DNA of 51,294 bases from Candidatus Methanoperedens sp. GTDB lineage: Archaea > Halobacteriota > Methanosarcinia > Methanosarcinales > Methanoperedenaceae. The notes below the pieces were generated by a model that had not been told where the DNA came from, ran no database searches, and saw only the letters and a program-made list of their open reading frames with translations. This document shows positions 10,987 through 38,804 of this stretch, one piece after another; the stretch's first letter is position 1; the number at the start of each line of letters is the position of its first letter. The stretch is taken from NCBI GenBank assembly GCA_026552955.1, contig JAPMTS010000028.1, positions 1 to 51,294 of the forward strand, read 5' to 3'. The position numbers and the translations under genes were made by a program.

Positions 10987-11047
10987 TTGATGCTACTTTT
11001 TAGATAATTATTTATGTCATTACTGCGTTATATTAATTGTGATACTC

Positions 11048-12298
11048 ATGGATATAAAAGATGATAATAAGATAATACAGTGGTTCAACATTAAAGATTT
11101 ATCCGAAAAAAGCCAAGGAACATATCTTATCTATATGAAAAAGTTTTGTTCATGTATTGATAAGAATCCTACAGAATTAATTAAAGAAGCGGAAGAGGAA
11201 ACTAAGAAGGGATTATTATTAAGTGAACGTAAGACCTTTGAATATTTAACCCAATTCAAGAAATGTATCAAAGACCTTGCGCCAAAGTCACAATCTTTAG
11301 GTATGGCCGTTGTGAAATCATTTTATGAGACTTTTGATATACAGCTTAGTTCAAGCATCAAGAAGCAAAAGAAAGCAAACTCAAAGCGAGAAAATCAAAA
11401 CTTTCTGAAAAAAGAAGATATTGAAAAAATGGTGACTTATGCCCAAAATACCCGTGATAAGGCAATATTCTTATGCATGGCTACATCGGGGATGGGATTA
11501 CAAGAAATCACAAATTTGAGAATGTCCGATATTACCTTTGGGGATGATGGTATTTCCACAATTTCAATAAGAAGACATAAAGTCGATATTGACCTAATAA
11601 CCTTTATATCTCCAGAGGCGACAACTGCATTAAAAGAATATTTTGAAGAAAGAAATAGAGACCCCAAACTATCAAGTAAGGGTAAAAAAGATTATGTTTT
11701 CGTCACATACTCAAATGGTGGTGGTAATGGTGGAAAGAAAGGTGGTCAAATAAGTGATAGGGCATTTACAAAAATATTCAAAGACTTAGGAAATGAACTT
11801 GGTTATGATAATGGTGAAGATTTTGTAAAAACAAGAAGCCATGCACTTAGAAAGTTTTTCACATCTACATTAGAAGATAATGGCTTTCCGAAACCGAAAG
11901 TTGATTTTATGGTGGGGCATACAGTGAATGACAGAGATAAAGCTTATACAAATCGTTCTCAAGCTGAATTAAAAGAGTTATATATTCAATATTTGCCACA
12001 CTTGACATTTTTCGAGAAAACAATTGAAGTTAGATCACTTGATACAAAGGATAGTAAAAAGCTGAATGACCTTGAAAGTGAAAATGCTATACTAAAGGCA
12101 AAAATGGAAGAAATGAATGGAAATAAATCAAACATGGAATCCCGACTTAGTGCTATGGAAGCAATGGTTAATCAATTGATAAATGCAAGACAAAAAGATG
12201 TCGAATATCGCATAGCAGAGGAAGGAATAGAGAAAGTTGAGGCTCAAGCATCACGATTTGTGGATAAATTCATAAAAGAGCAGGAAGGGAAACCATGA
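11048..12298 (+). CDS. Tyrosine recombinase (integrase) with C-terminal coiled coil
   Basis: About 416 residues; the ATG at 11048 is preferred over an in-frame GTG at 11039. In the numbering from 11039, an N-terminal SAM-like DNA-binding half (1-115) is followed by a catalytic domain with HALR (268-271), VGH (292-294) and the tyrosine in KAYTNR (303). The first catalytic arginine is not where expected: the usual SGLR is SGMG here (about 150-153). Such substitutions occur in some archaeal integrases, but activity is uncertain. A heptad-rich tail (about 340-400) is likely a coiled coil. It overlaps the next gene by four bases. Confidence 0.85.
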   Translation: MDIKDDNKIIQWFNIKDLSEKSQGTYLIYMKKFCSCIDKNPTELIKEAEEETKKGLLLSERKTFEYLTQFKKCIKDLAPKSQSLGMAVVKSFYETFDIQLSSSIKKQKKANSKRENQNFLKKEDIEKMVTYAQNTRDKAIFLCMATSGMGLQEITNLRMSDITFGDDGISTISIRRHKVDIDLITFISPEATTALKEYFEERNRDPKLSSKGKKDYVFVTYSNGGGNGGKKGGQISDRAFTKIFKDLGNELGYDNGEDFVKTRSHALRKFFTSTLEDNGFPKPKVDFMVGHTVNDRDKAYTNRSQAELKELYIQYLPHLTFFEKTIEVRSLDTKDSKKLNDLESENAILKAKMEEMNGNKSNMESRLSAMEAMVNQLINARQKDVEYRIAEEGIEKVEAQASRFVDKFIKEQEGKP

Positions 12299-25269: not shown

Positions 25270-25818
25270 ATGAAAAGAATACAGGCAAGAGCCAAACTGT
25301 GGTTGATAAATAACGAAGAAGAACCCATCATAGGAGAAGGTAAAGCGGCTCTTCTTGAAGCCATAAAACAGGAGGGTTCTTTGAACAGGGCATGCAAGAA
25401 AATGCAAATTTCTTATAAACACGCATGGCTCTTGTTAAAAGAGATTGAAGAAAGTGCTGGAGAGCCCATACTAATAACGCAGCGCGGGGGTATGGGGCAG
25501 GGAACATCCCTGACGGAAAAAGCAATGAACCTGCTTGAAGAATATAATACTTATCAAAATGTACTTAACCAAACGGTATATGACAAAACGTTCTGGGAGG
25601 CGATCGGATTGAAACTTTCTGCGAGGAATCAGATGAAGGGGAAGATTATCGAGGTTAAGAAAGAAGGTCTTATCTCAAAGATCAAGATTTCCATTGAACC
25701 CGCAATAATTACGGCGATCATTACAAAAGAAGCTGCCGATGCCATGGATATCAAGAAAGATGATTCGGTTGTGGCGGTTGTGAAGGCTACAGAAGTAATG
25801 ATCGGAAAAGAAGAATAA
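25270..25818 (+). CDS. modE: ModE-family molybdate/tungstate-responsive regulator
   Basis: 182 residues. The N-terminal winged helix (about 20-100) carries the ModE signature: GKAALLEAIKQEGSLNRACK, MQISYKHAWLLLKEIEE and RGGMGQGTSLTEKA. The C-terminal part (about 118-180) is a single TOBE/Mop-type oxyanion-binding domain, LSARNQMKGKIIEVKK and ISIEPAIITAIIT. It should sense tungstate or molybdate and control uptake. A palindrome just upstream of the next gene, tupA, is a good candidate operator. Whether it represses or activates is not shown. Confidence 0.88.
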   Translation: MKRIQARAKLWLINNEEEPIIGEGKAALLEAIKQEGSLNRACKKMQISYKHAWLLLKEIEESAGEPILITQRGGMGQGTSLTEKAMNLLEEYNTYQNVLNQTVYDKTFWEAIGLKLSARNQMKGKIIEVKKEGLISKIKISIEPAIITAIITKEAADAMDIKKDDSVVAVVKATEVMIGKEE

Positions 25819-25878
25819 CCATAATAGATAGTGCGGAAATGGAAATGTGATTTTTTTCGAAACTTTTATTAATATGCG

Positions 25879-25898
25879 TTATGTTTGAGTGAACATAA
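25879..25898 (+). promoter_or_regulatory. Palindrome upstream of tupA, candidate ModE operator
   Basis: TTATGTT (25879-25885) and AACATAA (25892-25898) are perfect inverted arms with a six-base spacer, ten bases before the tupA start codon. ModE boxes in bacteria are likewise two A/T-rich arms around a short spacer. A TTTATTAATATG stretch just upstream (from about 25865) can serve as TATA box, so binding here would block transcription. Confidence 0.5.
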
Positions 25899-25907
25899 GG
25901 TGTAAAT

Positions 25908-26810
25908 ATGAAAAATCTCTTTATAAAGATGATAATAGTCTCAATCTTGATCTCACTGTTTGCCGGCTGTGTCCAGCAGGCACCGAATACGACAACTCCT
26001 TCAACCGCCAATACGATCACTCCAACATCAACAACATCCGCCCCTGAGAAAATTCGTTTAGCAACGACCACTTCTACCTGTGACACAGGGTTGCTGGATG
26101 TCTTTAATAAAAAGTTTGAGGAGGAGAATAACGTACAAATATCCACTATATGCGAAGGTACGGGAAAAGCAATAGCCACAGGTGAGCTGGGAGCAGCGGA
26201 CGTATTGATGGTGCATTCGGTCCAGGCAGAATTAAAGGCTGTAGCTAACGGCAGTTTCATAAATCGCACCTATATGATGTATAATTATTTCGTGATCATA
26301 GGGCCCAAAAACGATCCGGCAGGGATCGGGAATGCCAGCAATGCTACCGATGCATTCAGTAAGATAGCTTCAAAGCAATCCCCCTTCGTATCCAGAGGTG
26401 ACAATTCGGGCACACATATGATGGAATTATCGATATGGAAGGCTGCAAACATCACACCCGCCGGAACATGGTACCAATCAGTGGGTAAAGGCATGGGAGA
26501 TACCATCACCACCGCCGACATCAAGAATGGTTATACGCTCTCGGACAGGGGAACATACCTGGCAATGAAAGATAAAATAAAACTGGGGCTAATATTTGAA
26601 TCGGACCAGAAATATCTTTTTAATCCTTACCATGTCATGGCTGTGAATCCTGCTAAATTCCCGAATGTGAAATACGATATTGCAATGAAATACATCAAGT
26701 ACGCAACATCTGCCGAGGGACAGGACATTATAAGGAATTATGGCATGGATAAATTTGGAGAAGCGCTTTTTGTGCCGAAGGAGGATGCGGGAAACGTAAC
26801 CAGTCCGTGA
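25908..26810 (+). CDS. tupA: Tungstate ABC transporter substrate-binding lipoprotein
   Basis: 300 residues. The signal ends at a lipobox (FAGC, Cys 21), followed by a Thr/Ser-rich linker that holds the binding domain off the membrane. RLATTTSTCDTGLLDVFN is the TupA start motif that contacts the oxyanion, and ICEGTGKAIATGELGAADVLMVH and FVSRGDNSGTHMMEL are further TupA segments. TupA prefers tungstate over molybdate in characterised members. The permease and ATPase are not next to it but 10.5 kb downstream beyond the fwd operon. The ATG follows AAGGTGTAAAT. Confidence 0.88.
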   Translation: MKNLFIKMIIVSILISLFAGCVQQAPNTTTPSTANTITPTSTTSAPEKIRLATTTSTCDTGLLDVFNKKFEEENNVQISTICEGTGKAIATGELGAADVLMVHSVQAELKAVANGSFINRTYMMYNYFVIIGPKNDPAGIGNASNATDAFSKIASKQSPFVSRGDNSGTHMMELSIWKAANITPAGTWYQSVGKGMGDTITTADIKNGYTLSDRGTYLAMKDKIKLGLIFESDQKYLFNPYHVMAVNPAKFPNVKYDIAMKYIKYATSAEGQDIIRNYGMDKFGEALFVPKEDAGNVTSP

Positions 26811-26895
26811 ACTGAAGGTGACAGGTTTGAGCAATGTTTGCATTCATGCAGATTATGGCAATCCCTTCAAAGGTCATTCAGGAAGGGAAGTTTCC

Positions 26896-27486
26896 ATGAA
26901 AGATGTTTTGAAAAAGATCACTGATCCATATCTACTATTCCAGATTGAGAGAGTAAGTTCCTTCCATGGATATCTCAGCACCGGAGCATTCATCGGAATC
27001 CAGATGCTCAACATTGCAAAAAGGCTGCTGGATGCTGATCCCAAAGAGCAGCTATATGTCACCTGTGAAACGTATAACTGCCTTCCTGATCCTTTCCAGA
27101 TCCTTGCCGGGTGTACTATCGGGAATAAAAAATTGAGGGTCAAAGATCATGGCAAGATGGCTGTGTTGGTGAACAAGAAAGCTCCTGATGGTCAAAAACT
27201 TGTTAGAAGCATCAGGATAGTGCTTGATCCTGAAAAAACTGCAAAATATCCCAGACTTCATGAGTGGTACATGAAAACAGGGACAGTGCCTCATGAGGAG
27301 GCGATATCCGTACTGATAGATGCCCGGGAAAGCGTGTACTCGTATGAGATCATGGATATTGAATTGCCGGAAAAACCAGAAAAAAGCATAGCTCTATGCA
27401 ACAAATGTGGCGAGAGTTTTGTCCGGAAAAACGGTGGGGCTCTATGTCTGAGCTGTAAAGAAAAGATTGGAGTATTAAAGGAGTAA
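26896..27486 (+). CDS. fwdE: Formylmethanofuran dehydrogenase subunit E-like protein
   Basis: About 196 residues from the ATG at 26896, which follows AGGAAGGG; an in-frame GTG at 26818 would add 26 residues but has no spacing for a ribosome-binding site. The family core appears as ERVSSFHGYLSTGAFIG, where most FmdE proteins have FHGHLCPG, so the usual cysteine is replaced here. A C-terminal zinc ribbon (CNKCGESF...CLSCKEK) is intact. Its role beside Fwd is not settled; it may help metal or cofactor insertion. It is four bases before fwdF. Confidence 0.8.
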   Translation: MKDVLKKITDPYLLFQIERVSSFHGYLSTGAFIGIQMLNIAKRLLDADPKEQLYVTCETYNCLPDPFQILAGCTIGNKKLRVKDHGKMAVLVNKKAPDGQKLVRSIRIVLDPEKTAKYPRLHEWYMKTGTVPHEEAISVLIDARESVYSYEIMDIELPEKPEKSIALCNKCGESFVRKNGGALCLSCKEKIGVLKE

Positions 27487-27489
27487 CAT

Positions 27490-28515
27490 ATGAAAGAGGT
27501 AGTATTTCAGACGAAAGAAGATAAGACACTCGTTTATCTTCCGGAAAAGTGTATCGGATGTTCAACATGTACAATGATCTGCCCAAAAGAGGATATGGTG
27601 ATAGGTTCAGTGGGAGCTGTGGCCCGCGGGCTCATCAACAAGGACTTCCTTCAGGGAACGGGAAAATGTACATTATGCAGCATGTGCACAAAGGTTTGCC
27701 CGACAGGGGCGCTTGAAATAAGAAAAGCAGGAAAACTGGAGATGGATGACTCTTATCTATATACCGCAATGAAGCCCACTCTAGTCAAAGAAAATTGCGT
27801 ACATTGTGGCATGTGCAAAGAGGTGTGCCCGCAGGAGTGCATAGAAGTCCAGAAGCGTCAACTTGCGCAGGATGGGAGCCTGGCCATGGATGGAAAAACT
27901 ATAATCGATCAGAAATGCTGCGTACACTGCGGCTGGTGTGCCTCCATCTGTCCTGTTGAAGCTATAACAATGGAAAAACCATTTTCAGGAGAATTTTCAC
28001 GGGATGAAAATGTGTGCCAAGCCTGTCGCACTTGCGTGAATACTTGCCCATGCGATGCCCTATTCAACAGGGAATGGAAAGCCGGGGAAAGAGTCGAGAA
28101 AGTGACACACAGGAAGGATGCCTGCATATACTGTGGCGCCTGTTCTGCAGCCTGTCCGGTCGGAGCAATAACAGTTAGAAAGACTGCAATAATTCCTGAT
28201 ATGAAGAAAAAACAGATATTTGAGAAATTGCTAACCGCAAAGGCTACTCCCAGACCAATGCTTACCTCAACACTTATCACTGACGAAGAGGCGTGCCTGG
28301 GCTGTGGTAATTGTGTGATCGTTTGCCCTGTTAATGCTTTTTCAGATCCTTATCTTGCAGCAGGACATCTCAATGAACTTGATGGGAAACCTCTGCTTGA
28401 GGTTGAGAACGGCATAGTGAATGTAGTAAATCAGGAAGTATGCGGTGCGTGTGCTACATGCAGCCTGATATGTCCCACGAATGCGATACGACTTGAAAAG
28501 AGAGAGGTGGCATAA
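27490..28515 (+). CDS. fwdF: Formylmethanofuran dehydrogenase subunit F, polyferredoxin
   Basis: 341 residues with eight CxxCxxCxxxCP motifs (from CIGCSTCTMICP to CGACATCSLICP), so eight [4Fe-4S] clusters. In the structurally known Fwd complex this polyferredoxin forms the electron wire between the tungsten site and partner enzymes. It starts three bases after the fwdE stop codon with AAAGGAGT upstream, and its stop overlaps the fwdA start (TAATG). Length and cluster number match the methanogen FwdF. Confidence 0.92.
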   Translation: MKEVVFQTKEDKTLVYLPEKCIGCSTCTMICPKEDMVIGSVGAVARGLINKDFLQGTGKCTLCSMCTKVCPTGALEIRKAGKLEMDDSYLYTAMKPTLVKENCVHCGMCKEVCPQECIEVQKRQLAQDGSLAMDGKTIIDQKCCVHCGWCASICPVEAITMEKPFSGEFSRDENVCQACRTCVNTCPCDALFNREWKAGERVEKVTHRKDACIYCGACSAACPVGAITVRKTAIIPDMKKKQIFEKLLTAKATPRPMLTSTLITDEEACLGCGNCVIVCPVNAFSDPYLAAGHLNELDGKPLLEVENGIVNVVNQEVCGACATCSLICPTNAIRLEKREVA

Positions 28516-30290
28516 TGCCTGGTACGATGGTTATAAGAAACGGATATGTTTTCGATCCGTTGAATGAAATTGATGGGGAAATTAAGGATATTTTTATCAA
28601 AGATGGTAAGATCGTAGATGATCTCAAAGGCAACAGTTTGCGGGATGCAAAAGTCATTGATGCAATGGGCAAGACTGTTATGCCGGGAGGCGTTGACTCA
28701 CACTCACATGTCGCCGGCGCAAAGGTGAACGGGGGACGGATGATGTGTCCTGAGGACCGTTACAAATGGGTGACAAAGAAGGGAGAAATCACCCATAGCG
28801 GTAGCGGGAATACTGTGCCTTCTGTGTACGTCCAGGGCTATGATTATGCAAAGATGGGGTACACCACGGTCTTTGAGGCGGCCATGCCTCCTATGGAAGC
28901 ACGGCATACTCATGAAGAGATGCGCTCAACACCCATCCTGGATATGGGCGCGTATCTGGTTCTGGGTAATAACTGGTTCATAATGCGCTACCTCAAGGAA
29001 GGAAATATCGAGAAAGCAGCAGCATACGCTGCATGGATGATGAAAACACACAAAGCATACGGCATAAAGTGCGTCAATCCTGCCGGGGTTGAGAACTGGG
29101 GCTGGGGAGTGGACGTAACTGAATCCCTGGATGAGCCCAATATACATTTTGGGATCACCCCAAGGGAAATTATCCACGGACTTACCGAAATAAACGAATT
29201 GCTGGGAATGCCTATGTCCGTGCACCTTCATGCCAATAATCTGGGAAATCCAGGGTGTTGGGAGGTAACAAAAAATTCTCTTGAAATTCCACGCGATGTG
29301 AAAGTTAAATGTAATATGGATGTGGAATGGCCAAAGACAAAGATCGATCCACAGCGAAACCAGAGCGTATACCTGGCGCATGCCCAGTTCAACTCGTTCG
29401 GTGGTACCTCATGGAGGGATTTTGAGTCAGGAGCAAAAGGAATTGTAGATTATGTGAACAAAACGGATCATGTCGTGATAGATAACGGCGCTGTTCCCTT
29501 TGGACCGGCAACAGTAATGACAGGAGACGGGCCTGCGATACATCATCTTTATAAACTGACCGGCAACAAGTGGTCTAATAAGGACGTTGAGCTTGAATGC
29601 GGTTCGGGTATATTATCATTTAATTACATGAAAGCAAATCCGGTACACAGCGCGCAATGGGCTATCGGGCTTGAGCTTTTGCTTCTTGTCAATGATCCCT
29701 GGAAGACCATCCTGACCACCGACCATCCTAACGGAGGACCATTCACCAAATACCCTCAGATAATCGCATGGATAATGTCACAGAAAGCAAGAGAGGACAC
29801 TTTTGCCGAATGCCATAAGTGGGCGCAGGATAGAAGCAGCCTTGGAGGATGTGATCGCGAAATGACACTCTATGATATAGCTATCCTCACAAGGGCAAAT
29901 CCTGCAAGAACTGTTGGGATAGCTCACAGGAAAGGACATCTAACAGCAGGAGCGGATGGCGATGTCACCATATACGACTTTGATCCCACGAAATTAGAAG
30001 CAAATAACTATACAAATATCATAAAAGGGTTCCAGAACGCCGCTTTCACCATAAAGGACGGCGAAGTTGTTGCACAAAACGGACAGATAATATCGGTTCC
30101 CAAAGGAAGGACATTCTTCAGCGAACCGCATATGGGTGATGGTCTTGAGAAGGAAATGTTAAAAGATGTTAAAGAGTGGTTCAAGTACTACACTCTGGGT
30201 TTTGCGAATTACCCGGTACCTGATAAATACATCCGCAATCCTTCGCCTGTGCAGGTAAACAAACCACTTGAATCGATCGTGGTGAGGTGA
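28515..30290 (+). CDS. fwdA: Formylmethanofuran dehydrogenase subunit A (amidohydrolase)
   Basis: 591 residues of the amidohydrolase family. GGVDSHSHVAG (His 63 and 65) is the first metal motif, GIKCVNPAG carries the lysine likely carboxylated to bridge two zincs, and HLHANNLGNPG, LAHAQFN and TTDHPNGGPF give the other ligands. FwdA interconverts formate with methanofuran and formyl-methanofuran, receiving formate through a tunnel from the FwdB site. In an anaerobic methane oxidiser it would run toward formate and CO2. Coupled to fwdF by a one-base overlap. Confidence 0.95.
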   Translation: MPGTMVIRNGYVFDPLNEIDGEIKDIFIKDGKIVDDLKGNSLRDAKVIDAMGKTVMPGGVDSHSHVAGAKVNGGRMMCPEDRYKWVTKKGEITHSGSGNTVPSVYVQGYDYAKMGYTTVFEAAMPPMEARHTHEEMRSTPILDMGAYLVLGNNWFIMRYLKEGNIEKAAAYAAWMMKTHKAYGIKCVNPAGVENWGWGVDVTESLDEPNIHFGITPREIIHGLTEINELLGMPMSVHLHANNLGNPGCWEVTKNSLEIPRDVKVKCNMDVEWPKTKIDPQRNQSVYLAHAQFNSFGGTSWRDFESGAKGIVDYVNKTDHVVIDNGAVPFGPATVMTGDGPAIHHLYKLTGNKWSNKDVELECGSGILSFNYMKANPVHSAQWAIGLELLLLVNDPWKTILTTDHPNGGPFTKYPQIIAWIMSQKAREDTFAECHKWAQDRSSLGGCDREMTLYDIAILTRANPARTVGIAHRKGHLTAGADGDVTIYDFDPTKLEANNYTNIIKGFQNAAFTIKDGEVVAQNGQIISVPKGRTFFSEPHMGDGLEKEMLKDVKEWFKYYTLGFANYPVPDKYIRNPSPVQVNKPLESIVVR

Positions 30291-30295
30291 AAGTG

Positions 30296-31105
30296 ATGAG
30301 CGAAGTAGTACTGAAGCCAAAAGGCATCATAGATATCATGGTCGAGGCAGAAGTCATCAACCCGGATGTCTTTGCAGGAAAGACGACGAGTGAAATCGAA
30401 CAATTGATCGTATGGCAGGGAGCAAAACAACTTCAACTTTGCGATTTCTTTGATGTTGAAGGAAGCGCAGGTAGCTCAGCAACAGATGCAAAGATCATTG
30501 TAAGAGGTAATGTGCCCAGAGTGAAGCATATCGGACATGGCATCAAAGCCGGAGAGATAGTAATTGAAGGTTCTGCTGGCATGCATGTGGGTTCTGAAAT
30601 GATAGGAGGAAGTATCCTCGTGAAAGGCGATGCAGGCTCATGGGCTGGCATGGAGATGAAAGGCGGGACTTTGCATATTACCGGGAATGCGGGAGATCAT
30701 GTTGGATGCGCTTACAGGGGAAGCTGGCGCGGAATGTATGGAGGGAGGATCCTGATAGATGGTAATGCAAGGAGCCAGCTCGGAGGCGGAATGAGCGGTG
30801 GAGAGATCCATGTTGGTGGAAGCGTTGAGAATTTCCCCGGGATAAGAATGAATAACGGTCTGATCGTTGTAAAAGGCGATGCGATCCGCGGCGTGGGAGC
30901 ACAAATGTCAGGCGGAACATTTGTCGTAAGCGGGAAGATCAAACAATTATCTCCAGGCTTTGAGTCTATAGGCACTGAAAAGGACCCGAAGATCGGTGAA
31001 ACGGTTCTGACAGGAGAATTCATAAAATTCACGGGTGACTATGCTTTGAGTAAAACACCAAAAGGAATTTTGTATGCATCAAAAGATGCCAATGAGGAGG
31101 TGTGA
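30296..31105 (+). CDS. fwdC: Formylmethanofuran dehydrogenase subunit C
   Basis: 269 residues from the ATG at 30296, which has AGGTGA upstream; a GTG at 30287 would add three residues. The protein is a right-handed beta-helix of Gly-rich repeats, seen as GSAGMHVGSEMIGG, GDAGSWAGMEMKGG, GNAGDHVGCAYRG and GNARSQLGGGMSGG (about 85-200), the fold shared with the C-terminal part of glutamate synthase. It is the structural core that clamps FwdA against FwdB and FwdD. Confidence 0.93.
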   Translation: MSEVVLKPKGIIDIMVEAEVINPDVFAGKTTSEIEQLIVWQGAKQLQLCDFFDVEGSAGSSATDAKIIVRGNVPRVKHIGHGIKAGEIVIEGSAGMHVGSEMIGGSILVKGDAGSWAGMEMKGGTLHITGNAGDHVGCAYRGSWRGMYGGRILIDGNARSQLGGGMSGGEIHVGGSVENFPGIRMNNGLIVVKGDAIRGVGAQMSGGTFVVSGKIKQLSPGFESIGTEKDPKIGETVLTGEFIKFTGDYALSKTPKGILYASKDANEEV

Positions 31106-31108
31106 AGA

Positions 31109-31549
31109 ATGAGGATCAAAGTAATATTGAACTCAGGAAGCACGATAGACGAGGGAAGGCTTGCCAAAGGCGGAGATAAACTTTCACCTGAATACCAGAC
31201 GGAATGTGCAGTGGCATTTATCCACCCCAGGACATTCAAAGAACTGGGCAGCCCCAAGCGCTTGAAAGTAATTTCAAATGATGAAACGCGCGAGGTCGTT
31301 GTAACTGCAAAGTGTGAAGGTTCGGTGACAGAGGATCAGATATTCATGCCAAGATCGATATGGCCAAACGTGGTCACGGAACCTGAGACGTTCTCCACAG
31401 GCTCATCTCTCTATAAGGGAAGTCCGGTGTTCATAGAAGGCACGGAAGAAGAAGTCAAAAGCGCAGAGGATATTGTATTGAAACTCTATGCCGGTTTGAT
31501 AAGCCCAACGTCTAAAAAAACTGAGAATCCCGGGAAAGGAGGGAGATAA
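31109..31549 (+). CDS. fwdD: Formylmethanofuran dehydrogenase subunit D
   Basis: 146 residues of the molybdopterin dinucleotide-binding fold. KLSPEYQTECAVAFIHP, LKVISNDETREVVVTAK and QIFMPRSIWPNVVTEP are typical of FwdD, which binds one of the two pterin-guanine dinucleotides that hold tungsten or molybdenum. In other dehydrogenases this domain is fused to the catalytic subunit; here it is separate, as in other archaeal Fwd. GAGGAGGT precedes the start. Confidence 0.92.
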   Translation: MRIKVILNSGSTIDEGRLAKGGDKLSPEYQTECAVAFIHPRTFKELGSPKRLKVISNDETREVVVTAKCEGSVTEDQIFMPRSIWPNVVTEPETFSTGSSLYKGSPVFIEGTEEEVKSAEDIVLKLYAGLISPTSKKTENPGKGGR

Positions 31550-31550
31550 C

Positions 31551-32858
31551 ATGATCAGTAAGAACATTATATGCCCTGTATGCGGGGCATCATGTGATGA
31601 TATACAGGTTGATTATGATGGCGAAAACATTACTGTGAAGAACGCCTGCAAGATGGGGAATGCCAAATTCCATGAAATTGTAAGCCACCACAGGATCAAA
31701 GAACCGCAGATAAAAGAAAATGGAATATTCAGGAAAGCACAATGGGATGAAGCGCTGGACAGGGCTGCCGAAATCCTTGTTAACGCAAAGCGTCCTCTTC
31801 TTTTCATGGGAAGTGAGACATCCTGCGAAGCAATGGAGGTGGGTCTGCATATCGGTGAGTACCTTGGAGCACTGGTGGATTCAAACGCTACCGAGTGCCA
31901 TGGCCCGACTGCAATGGGTATTCAGGAAGCTGGAAGGGTAGGATCCACTGCTGGCCAGCCAAAACTCAGGAGCAGCCTTACGATTTACTGGGGAACCAAC
32001 CCGCTTGAATCAATGCCAAGGCACATGTCGCGGTACAGCGTCTTTCCGCGGGGGTACTGGACAAAGCGCGGAAGATTTGACCGGAAAATAATTACTGTGG
32101 ATCCAAGAAAATCTATTACCGCAGATGCCTCTGACCTCCATGTTCAGCTTAAACCCAACTCGGATTATGAACTGCTCTCAGCGCTTCTGACACTTCTTCA
32201 CGGTAAGAAACCTCATCCTTCGGTAGAAGAGATAACCGGAGTATCGATTTCTACTATGGAAAAGATGATGGAAATGATGAAAAACACCAACTTCGGGGCT
32301 ATATATGTTGGCCTGGGATTGGCATCATCATACGGAAAACACAGGAATACTGAGATTGCATTAAACCTTGTAAAAGAACTTAATGGTTACACCAAGTTCG
32401 TAATAGGGGCTCTTCGCGGCCACTGCAATGTGGCTGGATTCAACCAGATAGCCTCTTCTCTTTATGGCTATCCTTTCGGGCTTGACTTTTCACGCGGGTT
32501 CCCAAGATACAATCCTGGTGAGTTCACATCCGTTGATGTACTGCGGGAAAGGGATGTAGATGCTGTGTTTGTAATGTCTGCTGACCTTGTTTCTCATTTC
32601 CCGGCAACATGCGCTGAATACATGCTGGAGATACCCATGGTGTGTCTTGATATAGCTCCGTGTCCAACAACCCTGGCTTCAGACGTAGTGCTTCCTGGCG
32701 TTATCGATGCCATGGAATGCGATGGAACATTCTACAGGCTTGATGATGTGCCTATTTATTTCCAGCCTTTCACCAAGTCGCCGTTTGAGTTTACAGAGAG
32801 TAATGAAGATACCATGAAGCAGTTGTTTGAGAAGATAAAGAAACTCAAACCAAATTAA
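31551..32858 (+). CDS. fwdB: Formylmethanofuran dehydrogenase subunit B, tungsten catalytic subunit
   Basis: 435 residues. One [4Fe-4S] cluster is bound by Cys 8, 11, 15 and 33 (CPVCGASC and CKMG). NATECHGPT holds Cys 116, the sulfur ligand of tungsten or molybdenum; some homologues have selenocysteine here and this one does not. LTIYWGTNPLESMPRH and IITVDPRKS are pterin-binding segments. The enzyme reduces CO2 to formate or the reverse. A strong AAAGGAGGGAGAT precedes the ATG. A neighbouring tungstate transporter suggests the tungsten form. Confidence 0.95.
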   Translation: MISKNIICPVCGASCDDIQVDYDGENITVKNACKMGNAKFHEIVSHHRIKEPQIKENGIFRKAQWDEALDRAAEILVNAKRPLLFMGSETSCEAMEVGLHIGEYLGALVDSNATECHGPTAMGIQEAGRVGSTAGQPKLRSSLTIYWGTNPLESMPRHMSRYSVFPRGYWTKRGRFDRKIITVDPRKSITADASDLHVQLKPNSDYELLSALLTLLHGKKPHPSVEEITGVSISTMEKMMEMMKNTNFGAIYVGLGLASSYGKHRNTEIALNLVKELNGYTKFVIGALRGHCNVAGFNQIASSLYGYPFGLDFSRGFPRYNPGEFTSVDVLRERDVDAVFVMSADLVSHFPATCAEYMLEIPMVCLDIAPCPTTLASDVVLPGVIDAMECDGTFYRLDDVPIYFQPFTKSPFEFTESNEDTMKQLFEKIKKLKPN

Positions 32859-32865
32859 TTGGCAA

Positions 32866-33693
32866 ATGAAAGAAAGCTGGCACGCGGAAAAAGCGGGCAA
32901 ATGGAAGAGCTACTGGAAGGATGAGGTGCATGATCCTTCCGCTCCATATATTTTGACAAAGTGTATTGAAATTTCAGGAGATTTGCGCAAGGAAATTGAA
33001 CTGGATGTTGTGGAAGAAGAAAGCATAAAGATCATGCTGGACGGGCGACACCTTGTCACTCTTCTTGCCCTTCCAAGAGAGCTTCGCGAACTTGCTGTGG
33101 GATTTCTTATTTGCGAGGGTGTTCTTAAGAAAATAGAAGACATTCGTTCGATATCTGTGCAAGATGATACTGTTTTTTGCGAAAGCACTCTGGATAAGAG
33201 TGATCTTGAACTGTGGACTGAGGTCAGAAGCTCAGGATGCATAGGCATCAAGTCATCATGGGAAGGAATAGAACCTATCACCTCAAACGTTCGGATGGAG
33301 AAAGAAGTGCTGCTTAATACTATCGAACAGATAAAAGAAAAGGGAAAGATCTGGAGAAGAACTGGCGGGACACACTCCTCGCTTATTTGCACACGGGAAG
33401 GTGACATCGTATCTTTTTGCGAGGATGTCAGCAGGGCGTGCTCTGTGGACAAGGCAGCCGGAGCGGCGCTTCTTTCGGGAATAGACCTTTCACACTATGC
33501 CCTTGTCACAACAGGAAGGCTTTCAGGCGGAATGGTGGCAAAAGTAGCGCGTGCAGGGATTCCCATTGTGGTGAGCAAGGCTGCACCGTTGAGTACAGGA
33601 GTTGCGCTTTCAAAAATGGTAGGAATGACACTTGTGGCATTTGTAAGAAATCCGAATTTATATGTATATTCTGGCCAAGAGAGGATATTATAA
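32866..33693 (+). CDS. fdhD: FdhD-like sulfurtransferase for the Fwd active site
   Basis: 275 residues, eight bases after fwdB. PRELRELAVGFLICEGVL, RRTGGTHSSLICTREG and the C-terminal TTGRLSGGMVAKVARAGI are FdhD motifs. FdhD passes sulfur to the molybdenum cofactor of formate dehydrogenases. Two signatures are changed: the CxxC loop has one cysteine only (SSGCIGIKSS), and EDVGRHNAVDK is EDVSRACSVDK. A mechanism using one cysteine is known in some homologues. Placement after fwdB suggests it sulfurates the Fwd cofactor, which I infer. Confidence 0.85.
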   Translation: MKESWHAEKAGKWKSYWKDEVHDPSAPYILTKCIEISGDLRKEIELDVVEEESIKIMLDGRHLVTLLALPRELRELAVGFLICEGVLKKIEDIRSISVQDDTVFCESTLDKSDLELWTEVRSSGCIGIKSSWEGIEPITSNVRMEKEVLLNTIEQIKEKGKIWRRTGGTHSSLICTREGDIVSFCEDVSRACSVDKAAGAALLSGIDLSHYALVTTGRLSGGMVAKVARAGIPIVVSKAAPLSTGVALSKMVGMTLVAFVRNPNLYVYSGQERIL

Positions 33694-33729
33694 ACAGTTT
33701 TAAATTTTAGGACATATGAGGTAAAAGCC

Positions 33730-35199
33730 GTGCTTGATGGAAAACTATTGATCGCAGGAAAATGGAACGCCTGTGATAGAAAATTCGAATCTTTGAATCC
33801 TGCCACAGGCGAAGTCTTGGGGAAAGCATGTCTTGCAGGCGTTGAAGAAGTAACAGAAGCTGTAAAGGAAGCGAAGCTTGCCCAAAAAGGCTGGAAAAAG
33901 ACCGACATTTTAGAAAGAGCAAGAATTTTTACCAGGATCGGGGATGAACTTCTAAAAAGATCACAGGTGATTAGCAACCTCATAACTATGGAAATGGGTC
34001 GTCCGCTGTTTGAATCAAATATCGAAGTGCGCAAAACATCTGAAATGGTAAAATATTTTGCAAACGAGGGAAAGAAATTATTGGAAGGGGATGAGATTCC
34101 AATTAATCCTCATAACTTCAGCTATACCAGGTTTGAACCCGTTGGGGTGGTGGGTATTATCAAGCCCTGGAACTATCCTTTATTACTTCCATTCTGGGCT
34201 ATAGCGCCCTCACTTATTGCAGGCAACACTGTTGTTTTTAAACCCTCTGACCTGACCCCTTTTGTTGGAATAGAGATCGGTAAAATATGCCAGGATGCCG
34301 GGATACCGGACGGTGTGATAAATATTGTAACGGGTGATGGTTTCACGGGTAAAAGCCTTGTGAGTTCGGATATAGATATGATATCCTTTACGGGAAGTTT
34401 GGATACAGGCAAGAATATTATGAAAAACTCTGCTGATAAATTGCACCGGATATCCCTTGAGTTGGGGGGAAGCGATGCTTTTATTGTTTTTAAGGATGCC
34501 CACATTGAGGAAGCCATAAACGGCGCGGTCTGGGGAAGATTCATGAACTGCGGGCAGGTTTGCATTTCCCCAAAAAGGATCTTTGTGGAAGATGATATAG
34601 CCGATAGTTTCATTGAAGAATTTGTAAACAAGACCAGGGAGCTCATTATTGGTAATGGTCTGGATCCATGTACGGATATAGGCCCGATGGTCAGTAAGGA
34701 ACAGAGGGAGAAACTTGAACTGCAGGTGGAAGATGCCCTCAGGAAGGGCGTTATTGTCAAATGTGGTGGAAAAAGACCCCAGTCGCTGCAGAATGGATAT
34801 TTCTACGAACCTGCAGTTCTTACAGGAGTCACTCCTGAAATGAGTGTAATGAATGAAGAAGTGTTCGGGCCCGTTGCAGTAATTTCAGTTTTTAAAAATA
34901 TGGATGAAGCCATTGCTCTTGCAAACAAGACAAGATATGGATTGGGAGCATCTGTGTGGACAAAGAACCTGGATACTGCAATGAATATGTCCTCGCAATT
35001 GGAGTGCGGGATGGTATGGGTAAATGAAATATGCACGCTGCACCCGCAATGTTCCTGGGGCGGGATCAAGCATAGCGGGATGGGGAAAGACTTATCCAGA
35101 TATGGTATAAGGGAATTTGTAAATATCAAGAATGTGAATATTAACCTGGGAACTGAACAATCAAGGTCATGGTGGTTCCCGTATGGAAAATATGGGTAG
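33730..35199 (+). CDS. NAD(P)-dependent aldehyde dehydrogenase
   Basis: 489 residues from a GTG start with GAGGT upstream; no in-frame ATG fits. The full ALDH superfamily is present: PWNYPLLLPFWAIAPSLIAG, FTGSLDTGK in the nucleotide site, catalytic Glu in LELGG and catalytic Cys in MNCGQVCIS, plus the C-terminal GGIKHSGMGKDLSRYG. It is closest in style to succinate-semialdehyde and related dehydrogenases, but the substrate cannot be fixed from sequence. It sits inside the tungsten/Fwd cluster, 36 bases after fdhD, so it may be co-transcribed. Confidence 0.88.
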   Translation: MLDGKLLIAGKWNACDRKFESLNPATGEVLGKACLAGVEEVTEAVKEAKLAQKGWKKTDILERARIFTRIGDELLKRSQVISNLITMEMGRPLFESNIEVRKTSEMVKYFANEGKKLLEGDEIPINPHNFSYTRFEPVGVVGIIKPWNYPLLLPFWAIAPSLIAGNTVVFKPSDLTPFVGIEIGKICQDAGIPDGVINIVTGDGFTGKSLVSSDIDMISFTGSLDTGKNIMKNSADKLHRISLELGGSDAFIVFKDAHIEEAINGAVWGRFMNCGQVCISPKRIFVEDDIADSFIEEFVNKTRELIIGNGLDPCTDIGPMVSKEQREKLELQVEDALRKGVIVKCGGKRPQSLQNGYFYEPAVLTGVTPEMSVMNEEVFGPVAVISVFKNMDEAIALANKTRYGLGASVWTKNLDTAMNMSSQLECGMVWVNEICTLHPQCSWGGIKHSGMGKDLSRYGIREFVNIKNVNINLGTEQSRSWWFPYGKYG

Positions 35200-35261
35200 A
35201 ATCCTACAAATAGAACACGGATGAAAAGGATTTATGTATATCAAGTCCCATCTAATAATGT

Positions 35262-35579
35262 ATGACAACTAATGCAGTACAAATAAGAATGCCATCTGTA
35301 TTACTGAAAAGTATTGAAGACCTTGTTAAGGAGGGCTATTATAAAAACAAAAGCGAGGCAATTATCGATGCTGTGCGTCATTTTGTGGGTTTTGAGCGGC
35401 CAAAAAGCGATATAGCGATCTTCATAAGAGAAGAGCTGCATGGAAGAAAATTAAAGCGGGATTATTCAAAAAAAGAATTCGATGCTATATGGGAAAAAGT
35501 AAGACAAGGGAATGACTGGAAAGAACGCTTCGGAACTGATGCCGATAACCTCATGAAAGAACTCAGGAGAAGACGATGA
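35262..35579 (+). CDS. Ribbon-helix-helix antitoxin-like protein
   Basis: 105 residues. The N-terminus VQIRMPSVLLKSIEDLV followed by GYYKNKSEAIIDAVRHFV is a ribbon-helix-helix DNA-binding domain. The C-terminal half is basic and probably wraps the toxin. It overlaps the PIN-domain gene by four bases (ATGA), the usual arrangement of antitoxin and toxin. It has its own TATA-like stretch (GGATTTATGTATATC) about 30 bases upstream, so it is probably independently transcribed. Confidence 0.82.
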   Translation: MTTNAVQIRMPSVLLKSIEDLVKEGYYKNKSEAIIDAVRHFVGFERPKSDIAIFIREELHGRKLKRDYSKKEFDAIWEKVRQGNDWKERFGTDADNLMKELRRRR

Positions 35580-36016
35580 TATTCATCGATACGGATATAT
35601 TTGTGATTGAAAAGTTATTCAATAACGATAAAAGATATACAGTAACAAATGAGTTTTTAAATAATGATTTAAAGGAAAAATGCACATCTATTTTCAACTT
35701 GTTTGAGCTCCTTGGCATTGCCTCTTTTAATCTGAGTAAAACCGATTTGAAAAAATTGCTCAAAGGATTTTCTGAAGTTTATGATATAAGGATACTGTTT
35801 CCTGTAACCTCATACGAATCAACAGATGCCTTCGTAGAGCAGTTATTTGATAATGTATTTGAAAAAATAATAATGAAGATGAGTTTTTCTGATGCTCTGA
35901 TATTGAGTGTTGCAGAAGAACATTCTTGCTCTAAATTTGTGACGTGGAATATAAAACACTTTGAAGGTCGGACAGATATTCCAGTGAAGACTCCGGAAGA
36001 GATGTTAACCTTATGA
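35576..36016 (+). CDS. PIN-domain (VapC-type) RNase toxin-like protein
   Basis: 146 residues. FIDTDIF (Asp 5), FELLG (Glu 44) and SFSDALIL (Asp 106) provide the acidic residues of a PIN nuclease; the last position is TWNIKHF, with Asn in place of Asp as is common. Partner of the ribbon-helix-helix gene upstream. As in other VapBC pairs it may cleave tRNA or other RNA. The pair is inserted between the aldehyde dehydrogenase and moeA, breaking the metal-cofactor cluster, which suggests late arrival. Confidence 0.85.
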   Translation: MIFIDTDIFVIEKLFNNDKRYTVTNEFLNNDLKEKCTSIFNLFELLGIASFNLSKTDLKKLLKGFSEVYDIRILFPVTSYESTDAFVEQLFDNVFEKIIMKMSFSDALILSVAEEHSCSKFVTWNIKHFEGRTDIPVKTPEEMLTL

Positions 36017-36145
36017 AAAGCGCTACACAGTCTCTCTATTTCGAAAAAATTAAAAACATGAATATAAAACATTTGATAACGATTTTTTTGATTGCTGCAG
36101 TATTCTTAAAGAAATCTGCGATACATATAATAAAGGAATGAGAAT

Positions 36146-37318
36146 GTGAAAAAAATAATAACTCTTAAAGAAGCACTTGAAAAAATAAAGCAGCTTAAAA
36201 CTACATATTATTTCAAACGCGAATCAGAACATGTTTCTATTCCCGACTCTGTGGGAAGAGAACTCAGTGAAGATATTGTTGCAGATTATCTGTCTCCGGT
36301 TTTCGATATTTCTGCCATGGACGGATTTGCTTTTCGATGTGAGGATAAGTATCCACTAAAAATCTCCGGAAGTGTATATGCTGGCGATAGCATTGTAAAG
36401 ATAAACAGGGGTGAGGCTATGGCGATCGCAACAGGCGCAATACTCCCGGAAGGCGCGGATACTGTGCTTAAAATTGAGGATTCAGAGGTAAGAAAAAGTC
36501 TCCTGAATGGAAAAAAGCTAAAAACGTGGGAAAATGTTTTCCGAAAAGGTTCGGATTACCATGCAGGGGATATGATATTCGAGAAAAATCACCGCATAAT
36601 GCCCCAGAGCGTTGCGCTTTTATACAGTCTTGGTATTGAAAGAGTCCCAGTATATAAAAAGATCAGGGCTGGCATAATATCTACAGGCACAGAAATTTTC
36701 AATGGTATGATAAAAAATACCAATGCAGTGCTGATACAGGGATTTATGAAGGAAATGGGCTGTGAATCCACATTTGTTGGCGCAGTCCAGGATGATTATA
36801 TTAAAACAAAGACCATGCTGCTCGAAGTCTGCAAAAAATTCGATGTAGTATTTACCACAGGCGGGGTTTCAGTAGGAGAGCGCGATTTCGTTGCAGATGT
36901 CATTACTGAGATCGGAGAAATCTTATTTCACAGGGTTGCCATCAAGCCCGGGAAACCACTTGCCGTTGGTATTGTGAAAGGCATTCCTGTATTTTCCCTG
37001 CCGGGCAAACCAACCGGGGCTCTGACTGCTCTTGAGATAGTAGTGCGAAGCTATTTTACTGATCTGCCAAGGGCAACGCATGAGCTTATGATAAATGAGG
37101 ATGTTATGCTCCCGGAAAAAGATTTTGAATACATCCTTTTTGTGAAGATAGTAAATAATAAGGCAAGCTCGATGGGAAGACAGATGAAGTTGTTTGATAG
37201 AGAATATAATACGGCGATCATCTCGGCATCTCCCCGTTCTGCTGTGGTTGAAGGGTATGTTATAACAAACAGGGATATTGGAAAAGGTGAACTGGTCAAT
37301 GTATATCTTTTCAATTAA
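36146..37318 (+). CDS. moeA: Molybdopterin molybdenumtransferase MoeA
   Basis: 390 residues from a GTG start with AAGGAATGA upstream. DISAMDGFAF, GDSIVKINRGEAMAIATGAILPEGADTVLKIED, TTGGVSVGERDFVADV and FSLPGKPTGALTALE are MoeA motifs in order. The enzyme inserts molybdate or tungstate into adenylylated molybdopterin. Position before tupBC and after the fwd genes argues for tungsten supply to Fwd, though one MoeA may serve both metals. No MogA/MoaB-like partner is in the window. Confidence 0.92.
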   Translation: MKKIITLKEALEKIKQLKTTYYFKRESEHVSIPDSVGRELSEDIVADYLSPVFDISAMDGFAFRCEDKYPLKISGSVYAGDSIVKINRGEAMAIATGAILPEGADTVLKIEDSEVRKSLLNGKKLKTWENVFRKGSDYHAGDMIFEKNHRIMPQSVALLYSLGIERVPVYKKIRAGIISTGTEIFNGMIKNTNAVLIQGFMKEMGCESTFVGAVQDDYIKTKTMLLEVCKKFDVVFTTGGVSVGERDFVADVITEIGEILFHRVAIKPGKPLAVGIVKGIPVFSLPGKPTGALTALEIVVRSYFTDLPRATHELMINEDVMLPEKDFEYILFVKIVNNKASSMGRQMKLFDREYNTAIISASPRSAVVEGYVITNRDIGKGELVNVYLFN

Positions 37319-37348
37319 TGGAAATAAGGATAAAAAAGAAGAGGCGAA

Positions 37349-38083
37349 ATGAGCAGCGTTGACTTTCTGATTCAGGGTATCATCAAAGCGCTGGAACTGA
37401 TATTCAGTATAAATCCATATATCCTCAGCATAACGGGAGTTTCAATAAAAGTATCAGGCACCGCCACTATCCTTTCGACCCTGACCGCGATTCCCCTGGC
37501 ATTTGCCATATCCTTCATGCATTTTCGGGGGAAACAGGGACTTATCACTCTCGTAAATACGGGAATGGGACTGCCCCCGGTTTTTGTTGGTCTTTTTGTC
37601 TTTTTGATGATAGTGCCTGTGGGTCCTTTAGGGTTCCTGAATATTGTTTACACACGAGAAGCAATGATACTTGCCCAGTATATTCTCATAACACCAATAA
37701 TTACAGGCATTTCTCTTTCGGCAATAAAGGCAGTCCCCCGGTCTATTATCGAGACAGTTCATACTCTTGGTGGAACGCAACAGGATGCTGTCATTGAGAC
37801 TTTAAAAGAGGCTAGATTTGGCATTATTACAGCAGTACTTGCCGGACTTGGGAGAGCGCTTGCGGAAGTCGGGGCTATCCTCATCGTGGGTGGCAATATC
37901 GCCCGCACAGGAAGCGTGGGAGGAATAGGTGAAGGACTATCCGAAACCCGCACCCTCACGACCGCGATCACATCGGAAACCAGCAAGGGTGATATCTCAA
38001 CATCCATCGCCCTGGGGATCATCCTTATCTGTCTTGTTCTTGGCGTAAATATCCTGGCAAACTTCTTCCAGAGGAGGGAATAA
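37349..38083 (+). CDS. tupB: Tungstate ABC transporter permease
   Basis: 244 residues with about six hydrophobic helices. LGRALAEVGAILIVGGNIA is the EAA loop that contacts the ATPase, and LPPVFVGLFVFLMIVPVG near residue 75 is typical of TupB. It follows moeA by 30 bases and is one base from tupC. TupA, encoded 10.5 kb upstream, is the probable periplasmic-side partner. Confidence 0.88.
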   Translation: MSSVDFLIQGIIKALELIFSINPYILSITGVSIKVSGTATILSTLTAIPLAFAISFMHFRGKQGLITLVNTGMGLPPVFVGLFVFLMIVPVGPLGFLNIVYTREAMILAQYILITPIITGISLSAIKAVPRSIIETVHTLGGTQQDAVIETLKEARFGIITAVLAGLGRALAEVGAILIVGGNIARTGSVGGIGEGLSETRTLTTAITSETSKGDISTSIALGIILICLVLGVNILANFFQRRE

Positions 38084-38084
38084 G

Positions 38085-38804
38085 GTGGAAGAATTGATAC
38101 GGATAGAGAGCCTCCAGAAGGTATTCGGTGAAAAAGAGGTCTTAAGAAACATTGATCTAACAATCCTGCAAGGTGAGATCTTCGCTTTTATCGGGCCAAG
38201 CGGCGCAGGTAAGACCACGCTTCTTCGCATCTTGAATTTTTTTGAAATACCGGAAAAGGGAACTATAAAATTCATGGGGATAAACCCGGAAGTAATCAAT
38301 ATTAGACGCAGGATGTCCCTTCTTTTCCAGACCCCTGCAATATTTAATAATTCAGTTTTTGAAAATGTAGCGTATGGCTTAAAAGTGCGCGGCATTGATA
38401 AAAAAATCATTGAAAAAAAGGTGGGTGATGCTTTAAATATCGTAGGACTTCCCGGTATGGAAAAACAGAATGCTCGAACGCTTTCGGGAGGAGAGGCGCA
38501 GCGTATGGCTTTTGCCAGGGCCATTGTATATGACCCGCAGATACTTCTTCTGGATGAGCCCACCGCGAACCTTGATCCGGCCAATGTTATGAAGATAGAG
38601 GAAATCATAAAACGAATACGAAACGAGCGCACAACGACTATTGTACTTGCAACGCATAATATCCCGCAGGTCAGGCGCATTGCCGACAGGGTGGGAATTT
38701 TATTGAACGGGGAATTGATTGAAGTCAACAGCAAAGAAGGGATTTTTTCAAAACCCAAAGATGCAAGGTCTGAGGCGTTTATCAATGGAGAGATGATATA
38801 TTGA
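38085..38804 (+). CDS. tupC: Tungstate ABC transporter ATP-binding protein
   Basis: 239 residues, GTG start. Walker A GPSGAGKTTLL, Q-loop LLFQTPAIFNNS, signature LSGGEAQRM, Walker B ILLLDEPTANLDP and the switch His in LATHN are all present. There is no C-terminal TOBE regulatory domain, in line with TupC and unlike ModC. It powers the TupABC tungstate importer and ends the cluster. Confidence 0.9.
   Translation: MEELIRIESLQKVFGEKEVLRNIDLTILQGEIFAFIGPSGAGKTTLLRILNFFEIPEKGTIKFMGINPEVINIRRRMSLLFQTPAIFNNSVFENVAYGLKVRGIDKKIIEKKVGDALNIVGLPGMEKQNARTLSGGEAQRMAFARAIVYDPQILLLDEPTANLDPANVMKIEEIIKRIRNERTTTIVLATHNIPQVRRIADRVGILLNGELIEVNSKEGIFSKPKDARSEAFINGEMIY

Follow-up and report, generated by a model that had tools for sequence, protein, structure and literature searches.

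Molybdenum-type-clade formylmethanofuran dehydrogenase genes nested within the tungstate importer locus of Candidatus Methanoperedens

The locus and its gene content

Anaerobic methane oxidation by reverse methanogenesis ends with the release of CO2, a step carried out by formylmethanofuran dehydrogenase. In this study, we describe an operon for this enzyme that lies between tupA and tupBC, the genes of a tungstate importer, on Candidatus Methanoperedens contig C11 (the window, i.e., the whole stretch of 51,294 nucleotides that was analysed), from a genome of 2.48 Mb that is 95% complete; genomes, contigs and loci are referred to below by our own G, C and L handles. Fifteen genes, all on the + strand, occupy positions 25270-38804 (Table 1), and nothing in the fmd operon appears broken. 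An earlier annotation made from the letters alone (the sequence-only reading) had listed here, in order, a modE-like gene, tupA, enzyme genes E-F-A-C-D-B, fdhD, an aldehyde dehydrogenase gene, a toxin-antitoxin pair, moeA, tupB and tupC, and family searches bore out these genes, their order and their coordinates. Most junctions overlap or span 1-8 bp, with intergenic gaps of ≤7 bp from tupA through fdhD (7 bp between tupA and fmdE); the larger gaps are ModE/TupA (89 bp), FdhD/aldehyde dehydrogenase (36 bp), aldehyde dehydrogenase/RHH (62 bp), PIN/MoeA (129 bp) and MoeA/TupB (30 bp).

The flanking genes comprise a TupA-family binding protein with permease and ATPase partners, for which scores under the curated equivalog cut-offs of the bacterial reference models indicate family membership as opposed to equivalence, and a regulator in which a winged helix-turn-helix (HTH) is joined to a single Mop oxyanion-binding domain, as in ModE. 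Judged by family, the Tup transporter would be tungstate-selective. The separation of tupA from tupBC by the enzyme operon, already noted in the sequence-only reading, is real: searches for own-genome paralogues returned one TupA and one close TupB, instead of separate complete transporters elsewhere, and the split genes are the only Tup system of the genome. A chimeric metagenome-assembled genome as the cause of the split was ruled out, the same junction being present in independent assemblies.

Table 1. Features of the fmd-tup locus (window coordinates)
Feature	Position	Strand	Evidence and remarks
ModE-like regulator	25270..25818	+	LysR-type HTH plus one Mop/TOBE oxyanion-binding domain; Pfam HTH_1, TOBE; NCBIfam ModE_repress, Mop
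Putative archaeal tupA promoter	25851..25871	+	B recognition element (BRE)-like TTTTTTTCGAAA, TATA-like CTTTTATTA; conserved 5' of tupA across the genus
ModE-box-like inverted repeat	25879..25898	+	TTATGTT-TGAGTG-AACATAA; overlies the expected transcription start
tupA, tungstate-binding lipoprotein	25908..26810	+	NF041772 (E 4e-54); PDB 3lr1 (E 4e-75), 3muq, 5my5
fmdE	26818..27486	+	Pfam FmdE 3.8e-31
fmdF, polyferredoxin	27490..28515	+	Eight CxxCxxCxxxC motifs
fmdA, amidohydrolase subunit	28515..30290	+	TIGR03121, 829 bits; HSH, K, H and D motifs kept
fmdC	30287..31105	+	TIGR03122, 278 bits
fmdD	31109..31549	+	Molydop_binding; NF042908 4e-14
fmdB, catalytic subunit, Mo-type clade	31551..32858	+	TIGR03129, 608 bits; Cys116 metal ligand
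fdhD, cassette-specific sulfurtransferase	32866..33693	+	TIGR00129; co-occurs with fmd across the genus
Aldehyde dehydrogenase family protein	33730..35199	+	Pfam Aldedh 1.5e-160
RHH/PIN putative toxin-antitoxin pair	35262..36016	+	Weak Pfam matches
ModC C-terminus remnant	36105..36141	+	LKKSAIHIIKE*; corresponds to the terminus of the intact ModC encoded 5' of moeA in G076
moeA, metal insertase	36146..37318	+	Pfam MoeA_N, MoCF_biosynth
tupB, permease	37349..38083	+	NF038017 over cut-off; NF041773, 135 bits
tupC, ATPase	38085..38804	+	ABC_tran 1e-30; follows tupB in empty-site congeners

Family of the enzyme and genes of metal supply

The operon had initially been labelled fwd and taken to encode the tungsten (W) form of the enzyme; by family, it is fmdEFACDB, and the W-form assignment finds no support. 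The B subunit of the window scores 658 bits to PDB 9sw6_J vs 390, 363 and 313 bits to 5t5i_B, 8rja_B and 7bkb_H, respectively; of these, 5t5i and 8rja are W enzymes, with W at the active site of the latter confirmed by anomalous data (PMC11493965). The 9sw6 structure would itself be the molybdenum (Mo) isoenzyme of Methanothermobacter, since its A subunit scores similarly to that of 5t5i, which fits an isoenzyme known to have FwdA in common with the W enzyme (PMC3087415). The E-F-A-C-D-B order of the window is that of Methanosarcina acetivorans fmdE1F1A1C1D1B1, annotated as molybdenum-type (PMC2838876), and the nearest relatives outside the genus are the fmd operons of Methanothrix and Methanosarcina. 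On its sequence, the catalytic B subunit thus belongs to the Fmd (molybdenum-type) clade. By contrast, contig C53 of the same genome carries another full operon, fwdD-B-A-C, the B subunit of which reaches 666 bits to 8rja_B and, unlike that of the window, groups with the W enzymes of known structure; a third B-like protein is encoded on contig C14. The tup-linked operon would therefore encode an accessory Fmd, with the W-type Fwd located elsewhere. Among anaerobic methanotrophic archaea (ANME), a comparative study reported mainly Fwd, with Fmd in some ANME-2a, 2b and 2c (PMC9012536).

Clade and neighbourhood disagree at this locus, which carries a more general caution, i.e., that the use of Mo or W cannot be read from the transporter neighbourhood alone. 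Family does not fix the metal either, as the Ethanoperedens enzyme was at first predicted to use Mo and proved to contain W, and Cys116 of the window B subunit corresponds to the position ligating W in that structure (PMC11493965).

Genes for molybdate uptake are also found at the locus in relatives. In G076, an intact modABC lies between the operator described below and moeA, with ModA and ModB over the NCBIfam cut-offs; G086 retains part of modB plus modC before moeA, G104 has modA, modB and the start of modC after the aldehyde dehydrogenase gene, up to the contig end, and G098 and G078 retain mod fragments. In the window, modC is reduced to its final 11 codons, located 5' of moeA, which we read as the scar of a lost modABC. 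Given this remnant and the modABC genes of relatives, the locus is better described as one of oxyanion supply for both metals. On contig C40 of the same genome, a second locus combines ModA and ModBC with a large molybdopterin oxidoreductase, an FmdE-like protein and a second MoeA (73% identical), beside which modB and modC (7540-8792 of L213, which is C40:10000-24000) are apparently truncated and fused in comparison with the intact pair at L229. The genome may thus be without a working molybdate importer, or the assembly may be wrong at this modBC.

Several of the parts have known counterparts. The fmdEFACDB operons of Methanosarcina have the same subunits in the same order, with FmdB ~77-79% identical to that of the window and FdhD encoded downstream in many Methanosarcinaceae; however, they are free-standing and at most near a mod-type transporter, whereas the operon of the window is nested within tupABC. 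Likewise, the TupA family, permease and ATPase are those of the tupABC importer, contiguous in 12 congeners and split in the window by a cassette of ~10 kb. Several archaeal fmd operons outside the genus lie ≤10 kb from Mod-type transporters. On a contig of the Methanothrix lineage (L103:10001-15319), fmd (fmdB) lies in a row with tupABC and a gene for a Tfx-family regulator, but there tupABC is intact and downstream of fmd; the arrangement is independent of that in the window and gives a separate link between Mo-type fmd and a tungstate importer. In Methanothermobacter, the Mo-type fmd operon is bound by Tfx close to its promoter, and tungstate represses tfx transcription (PMC3087415). The nesting of fmd in tupABC as an exchanged cassette was not found described in the literature searched and would be the new aspect among parts already known.

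Distribution of the cassette and its movement between species

To place the arrangement in context, 31 genomes of the genus Methanoperedens were searched for TupA, TupB, FmdB, MoeA and FdhD and the surrounding regions were inspected; in five of them the state of the site was unreadable (contig end after tupA, or no tupA found). As the sequence-only reading had proposed comparing gene order in other Methanoperedens, it is of relevance that the tupA-fmdE adjacency, with fmd intact or decayed, recurs in 14 of the 26 genomes with a readable junction, more than chance would give; in the other 12, tupA, tupB and tupC are contiguous (the empty site). Several empty sites have the same neighbours, with modE before and rsmB and zpr1 after. 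In most fmd-bearing genomes moeA is immediately 5' of tupB (exceptions, G027 and G017), and in several relatives tupBC is located with moeA away from tupA-fmd. The fmd genes are decayed in G088, G048 and G017; between tupA and moeA, G088:C17 (L028 / L231) holds fmdE and fmdB fragments along with two partial fdhD copies. A second fdhD, ~38% identical to that of the cassette, is present in nearly all genomes of the genus. Viral contigs scanned for the B subunit, as a sign of extrachromosomal or viral carriage, gave no match.

The end of TupA (last ~10 residues, EDAGNVTSP) marks the cassette junction. All 16 filled or decayed genomes have the TupA terminus DAGNVTSP regardless of their position in the species tree, whereas in six empty genomes TupA terminates in GIKE or GIKEQ and tupB starts at the tupA stop. 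Three further empty genomes differ: G082 has a near-identical tail, DAGDVTGP, joined directly to the tupB start, G106 keeps the cassette-type tail and G068 has a modified form of it, and these three consequently look like secondary losses. Windowed TupA identity along the gene revealed no clear crossover point, with only the extreme 3' end separating filled from empty genomes. In G018 (C55:2404-3795), a single 781-residue open frame encodes two domains resembling TupA, perhaps fused in tandem.

Among the filled genomes, identity at four-fold sites is 0.57-0.65 for fmdE through moeA, compared to 0.47 for elongation factor 2 (EF-2) and 0.40-0.47 for tupA, tupB and tupC. Its correlation with EF-2 divergence is about zero for the cassette genes (-0.24 to 0.16) and 0.34-0.56 for the tup genes. 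On the EF-2 tree, cassette presence is patchy, with filled G056 sister to empty G080 at 100/96. The shared TupA tail, together with raised synonymous identity that is uncorrelated with species divergence, points to horizontal movement; most likely, the cassette has been transferred from species to species at a single fixed site and has been lost, or has decayed, repeatedly. A deeper exchange is suggested by a tree of four genes (A, B, C and F), in which the fmd genes of Methanoperedens form one clade, separate from other ANME-2, with Methanotrichaceae as its sister group (support 100). As Methanosarcinaceae are in the same order as Methanoperedens and the group read as Methanotrichaceae shares only the class, this topology suggests a transfer of fmd between the Methanoperedens and Methanotrichaceae lineages, in one direction or the other.

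Regulation and interpretation

Two elements recur 5' of tupA in nearly every congener, first TTTTCGAAA-CTTTTATTA and then TTATGTT-N6-AACATAA, each in this form or as a close variant. In the window, the TATA-like element is at 25863-25871, and transcription would be expected to start ~25 bp further on, within the palindrome, which is the only match (≤1 mismatch) to the pattern in its own genome; a reversed control pattern had none. A second copy lies 5' of moeA in relatives in which moeA-tupBC stands apart, and copies also occur beside modABC in G076 and G104. In G044, a copy at C72:4692-4711 lies ~440 bp before a fwdB paralogue of the W type, a hint that in some species fwd may be subject to the same regulator. 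In its spacing and half-sites, the palindrome is similar to the E. coli ModE consensus, ATCGNTATATA-N6-TATATANCGAT (PMC545781). Shared with the ModE/ModE-box regulon are the HTH and Mop domains, a 6-bp-spaced AT-rich inverted repeat and its location at a transporter promoter; in contrast, the window protein has one Mop domain instead of two, the half-site is TTATGTT and not TATATA, and the promoter is that of tup. A literature search for archaeal ModE boxes returned only related work. In Methanosarcinales, modABC is under ModE control (PMC9765008).

Since this candidate operator overlies the expected start of a transporter gene, repression would be predicted, on the model of ModE elsewhere, when metal is plentiful: metal-bound ModE would repress the tupA promoter, and the nested fmd genes would be expressed most highly under metal scarcity. 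The expectation in the sequence-only reading that synthesis of the enzyme follows tungstate supply is thereby left unsupported, the operator position predicting the reverse. The proposed co-organisation fared better, with importer, ModE-like regulator, FdhD and MoeA grouped around the enzyme and recurring as such in the genus; co-regulation, via the ModE-box-like site at the tupA promoter, is plausible, as is functional coupling of importer and enzyme.

From these observations, we propose that an fmd operon with its own FdhD, an aldehyde dehydrogenase and MoeA came to be nested in the tupABC of Methanoperedens, probably through a single entry that replaced the last ~10 tupA codons, and would later have spread between species by recombination at the tupA/tupB flanks, with repeated loss or decay. 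At least the first cassette genes probably depend on the tupA promoter for transcription, and there initiation would be blocked by the oxyanion-bound ModE-like protein. The Fmd would thus serve as an accessory isoenzyme, made when molybdate or tungstate is scarce, beside the housekeeping W-type fwdDBAC. Taken as a whole, this account of a mobile, Mo-type Fmd cassette within tupABC is probable in our estimation. Were it true, control of an accessory isoenzyme by molybdate/tungstate, and its exchange between species, could mean that metal supply shapes which Methanoperedens oxidise methane, and where. Several points weigh against it: (i) codon bias could account for some of the raised synonymous identity, though EF-2 is a demanding control; (ii) EF-2 alone is a thin species tree; (iii) the patchy distribution is in part accounted for by repeated losses of an ancestral cassette; (iv) ModE can also activate genes in bacteria; and (v) the gaps of 89-129 bp, the toxin-antitoxin pair and the separate moeA promoter of relatives suggest that the window may be transcribed as two units instead of one.

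The alternatives differ in the metal they assign to the enzyme and in how they explain its location. That the locus encodes a tungsten-form enzyme, with synthesis rising with tungstate supply, is in keeping with the tungstate-selective family of TupA, the adjoining MoeA and FdhD, and the fallibility of sequence-based metal calls exposed by Ethanoperedens (PMC11493965); however, with a B subunit of the Fmd clade, a W-type Fwd elsewhere in the genome, modABC in the same locus of relatives and a candidate operator whose position fits repression, we consider this very unlikely. A metal-flexible enzyme of the Fmd clade, loaded with whichever of Mo or W is imported, and with W where only tupABC remains, is a possible if doubtful alternative: the window locus has lost modABC and the modB and modC genes on C40 appear truncated and fused, so that no oxyanion importer besides Tup was identified that seems intact, but the damage to modBC may stem from misassembly and the metal is unreadable from sequence. 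An active W-substituted Mo enzyme has reportedly been described in Methanobacterium wolfei. The more specific scenario of a recombining enzyme-plus-metal-supply cassette wired into the tungstate-starvation response, whereby metal-starved Methanoperedens would import tungstate and build an accessory Mo-clade enzyme running on tungsten, is somewhat unlikely.

As for location, the gap between tupA and tupB might be a neutral landing site for a cassette with its own promoter and without regulatory coupling. The relatives in which tupBC and moeA stand apart from tupA-fmd show that contiguity is inessential, and operon decay is common; yet the tupA-fmdE gap is only 7 bp, the separated moeA-tupBC units have their own operator copy, and other archaeal fmd operons are also near Mod, and once Tup, transporters, such that neutrality seems unlikely to us. 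No more probable is the presence of the cassette in the Methanoperedens ancestor followed by vertical descent only, with many losses. While the TupA tails mark G082, G106 and G068 as losses, and three further genomes are decaying, the synonymous divergence of the cassette is below that of EF-2 and uncorrelated with it, and the six empty genomes with the alternative TupA terminus share an intact, tight tupA/tupB overlap with no scar.

With respect to the remaining features of the window, an Rfam scan returned no RNA motif, and a Moco/tungsten-cofactor riboswitch over the gathering score is thus unsupported. The RHH and PIN genes, a putative type II toxin-antitoxin pair, overlap by 4 bp, with RHH_8 scoring under its cut-off and PIN barely over; no counterpart of the pair was detected in most other cassette copies, an RHH homologue being found only in G017. 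Upstream of the tup/fmd region, a phage-integrase family gene lies at 11039-12298.

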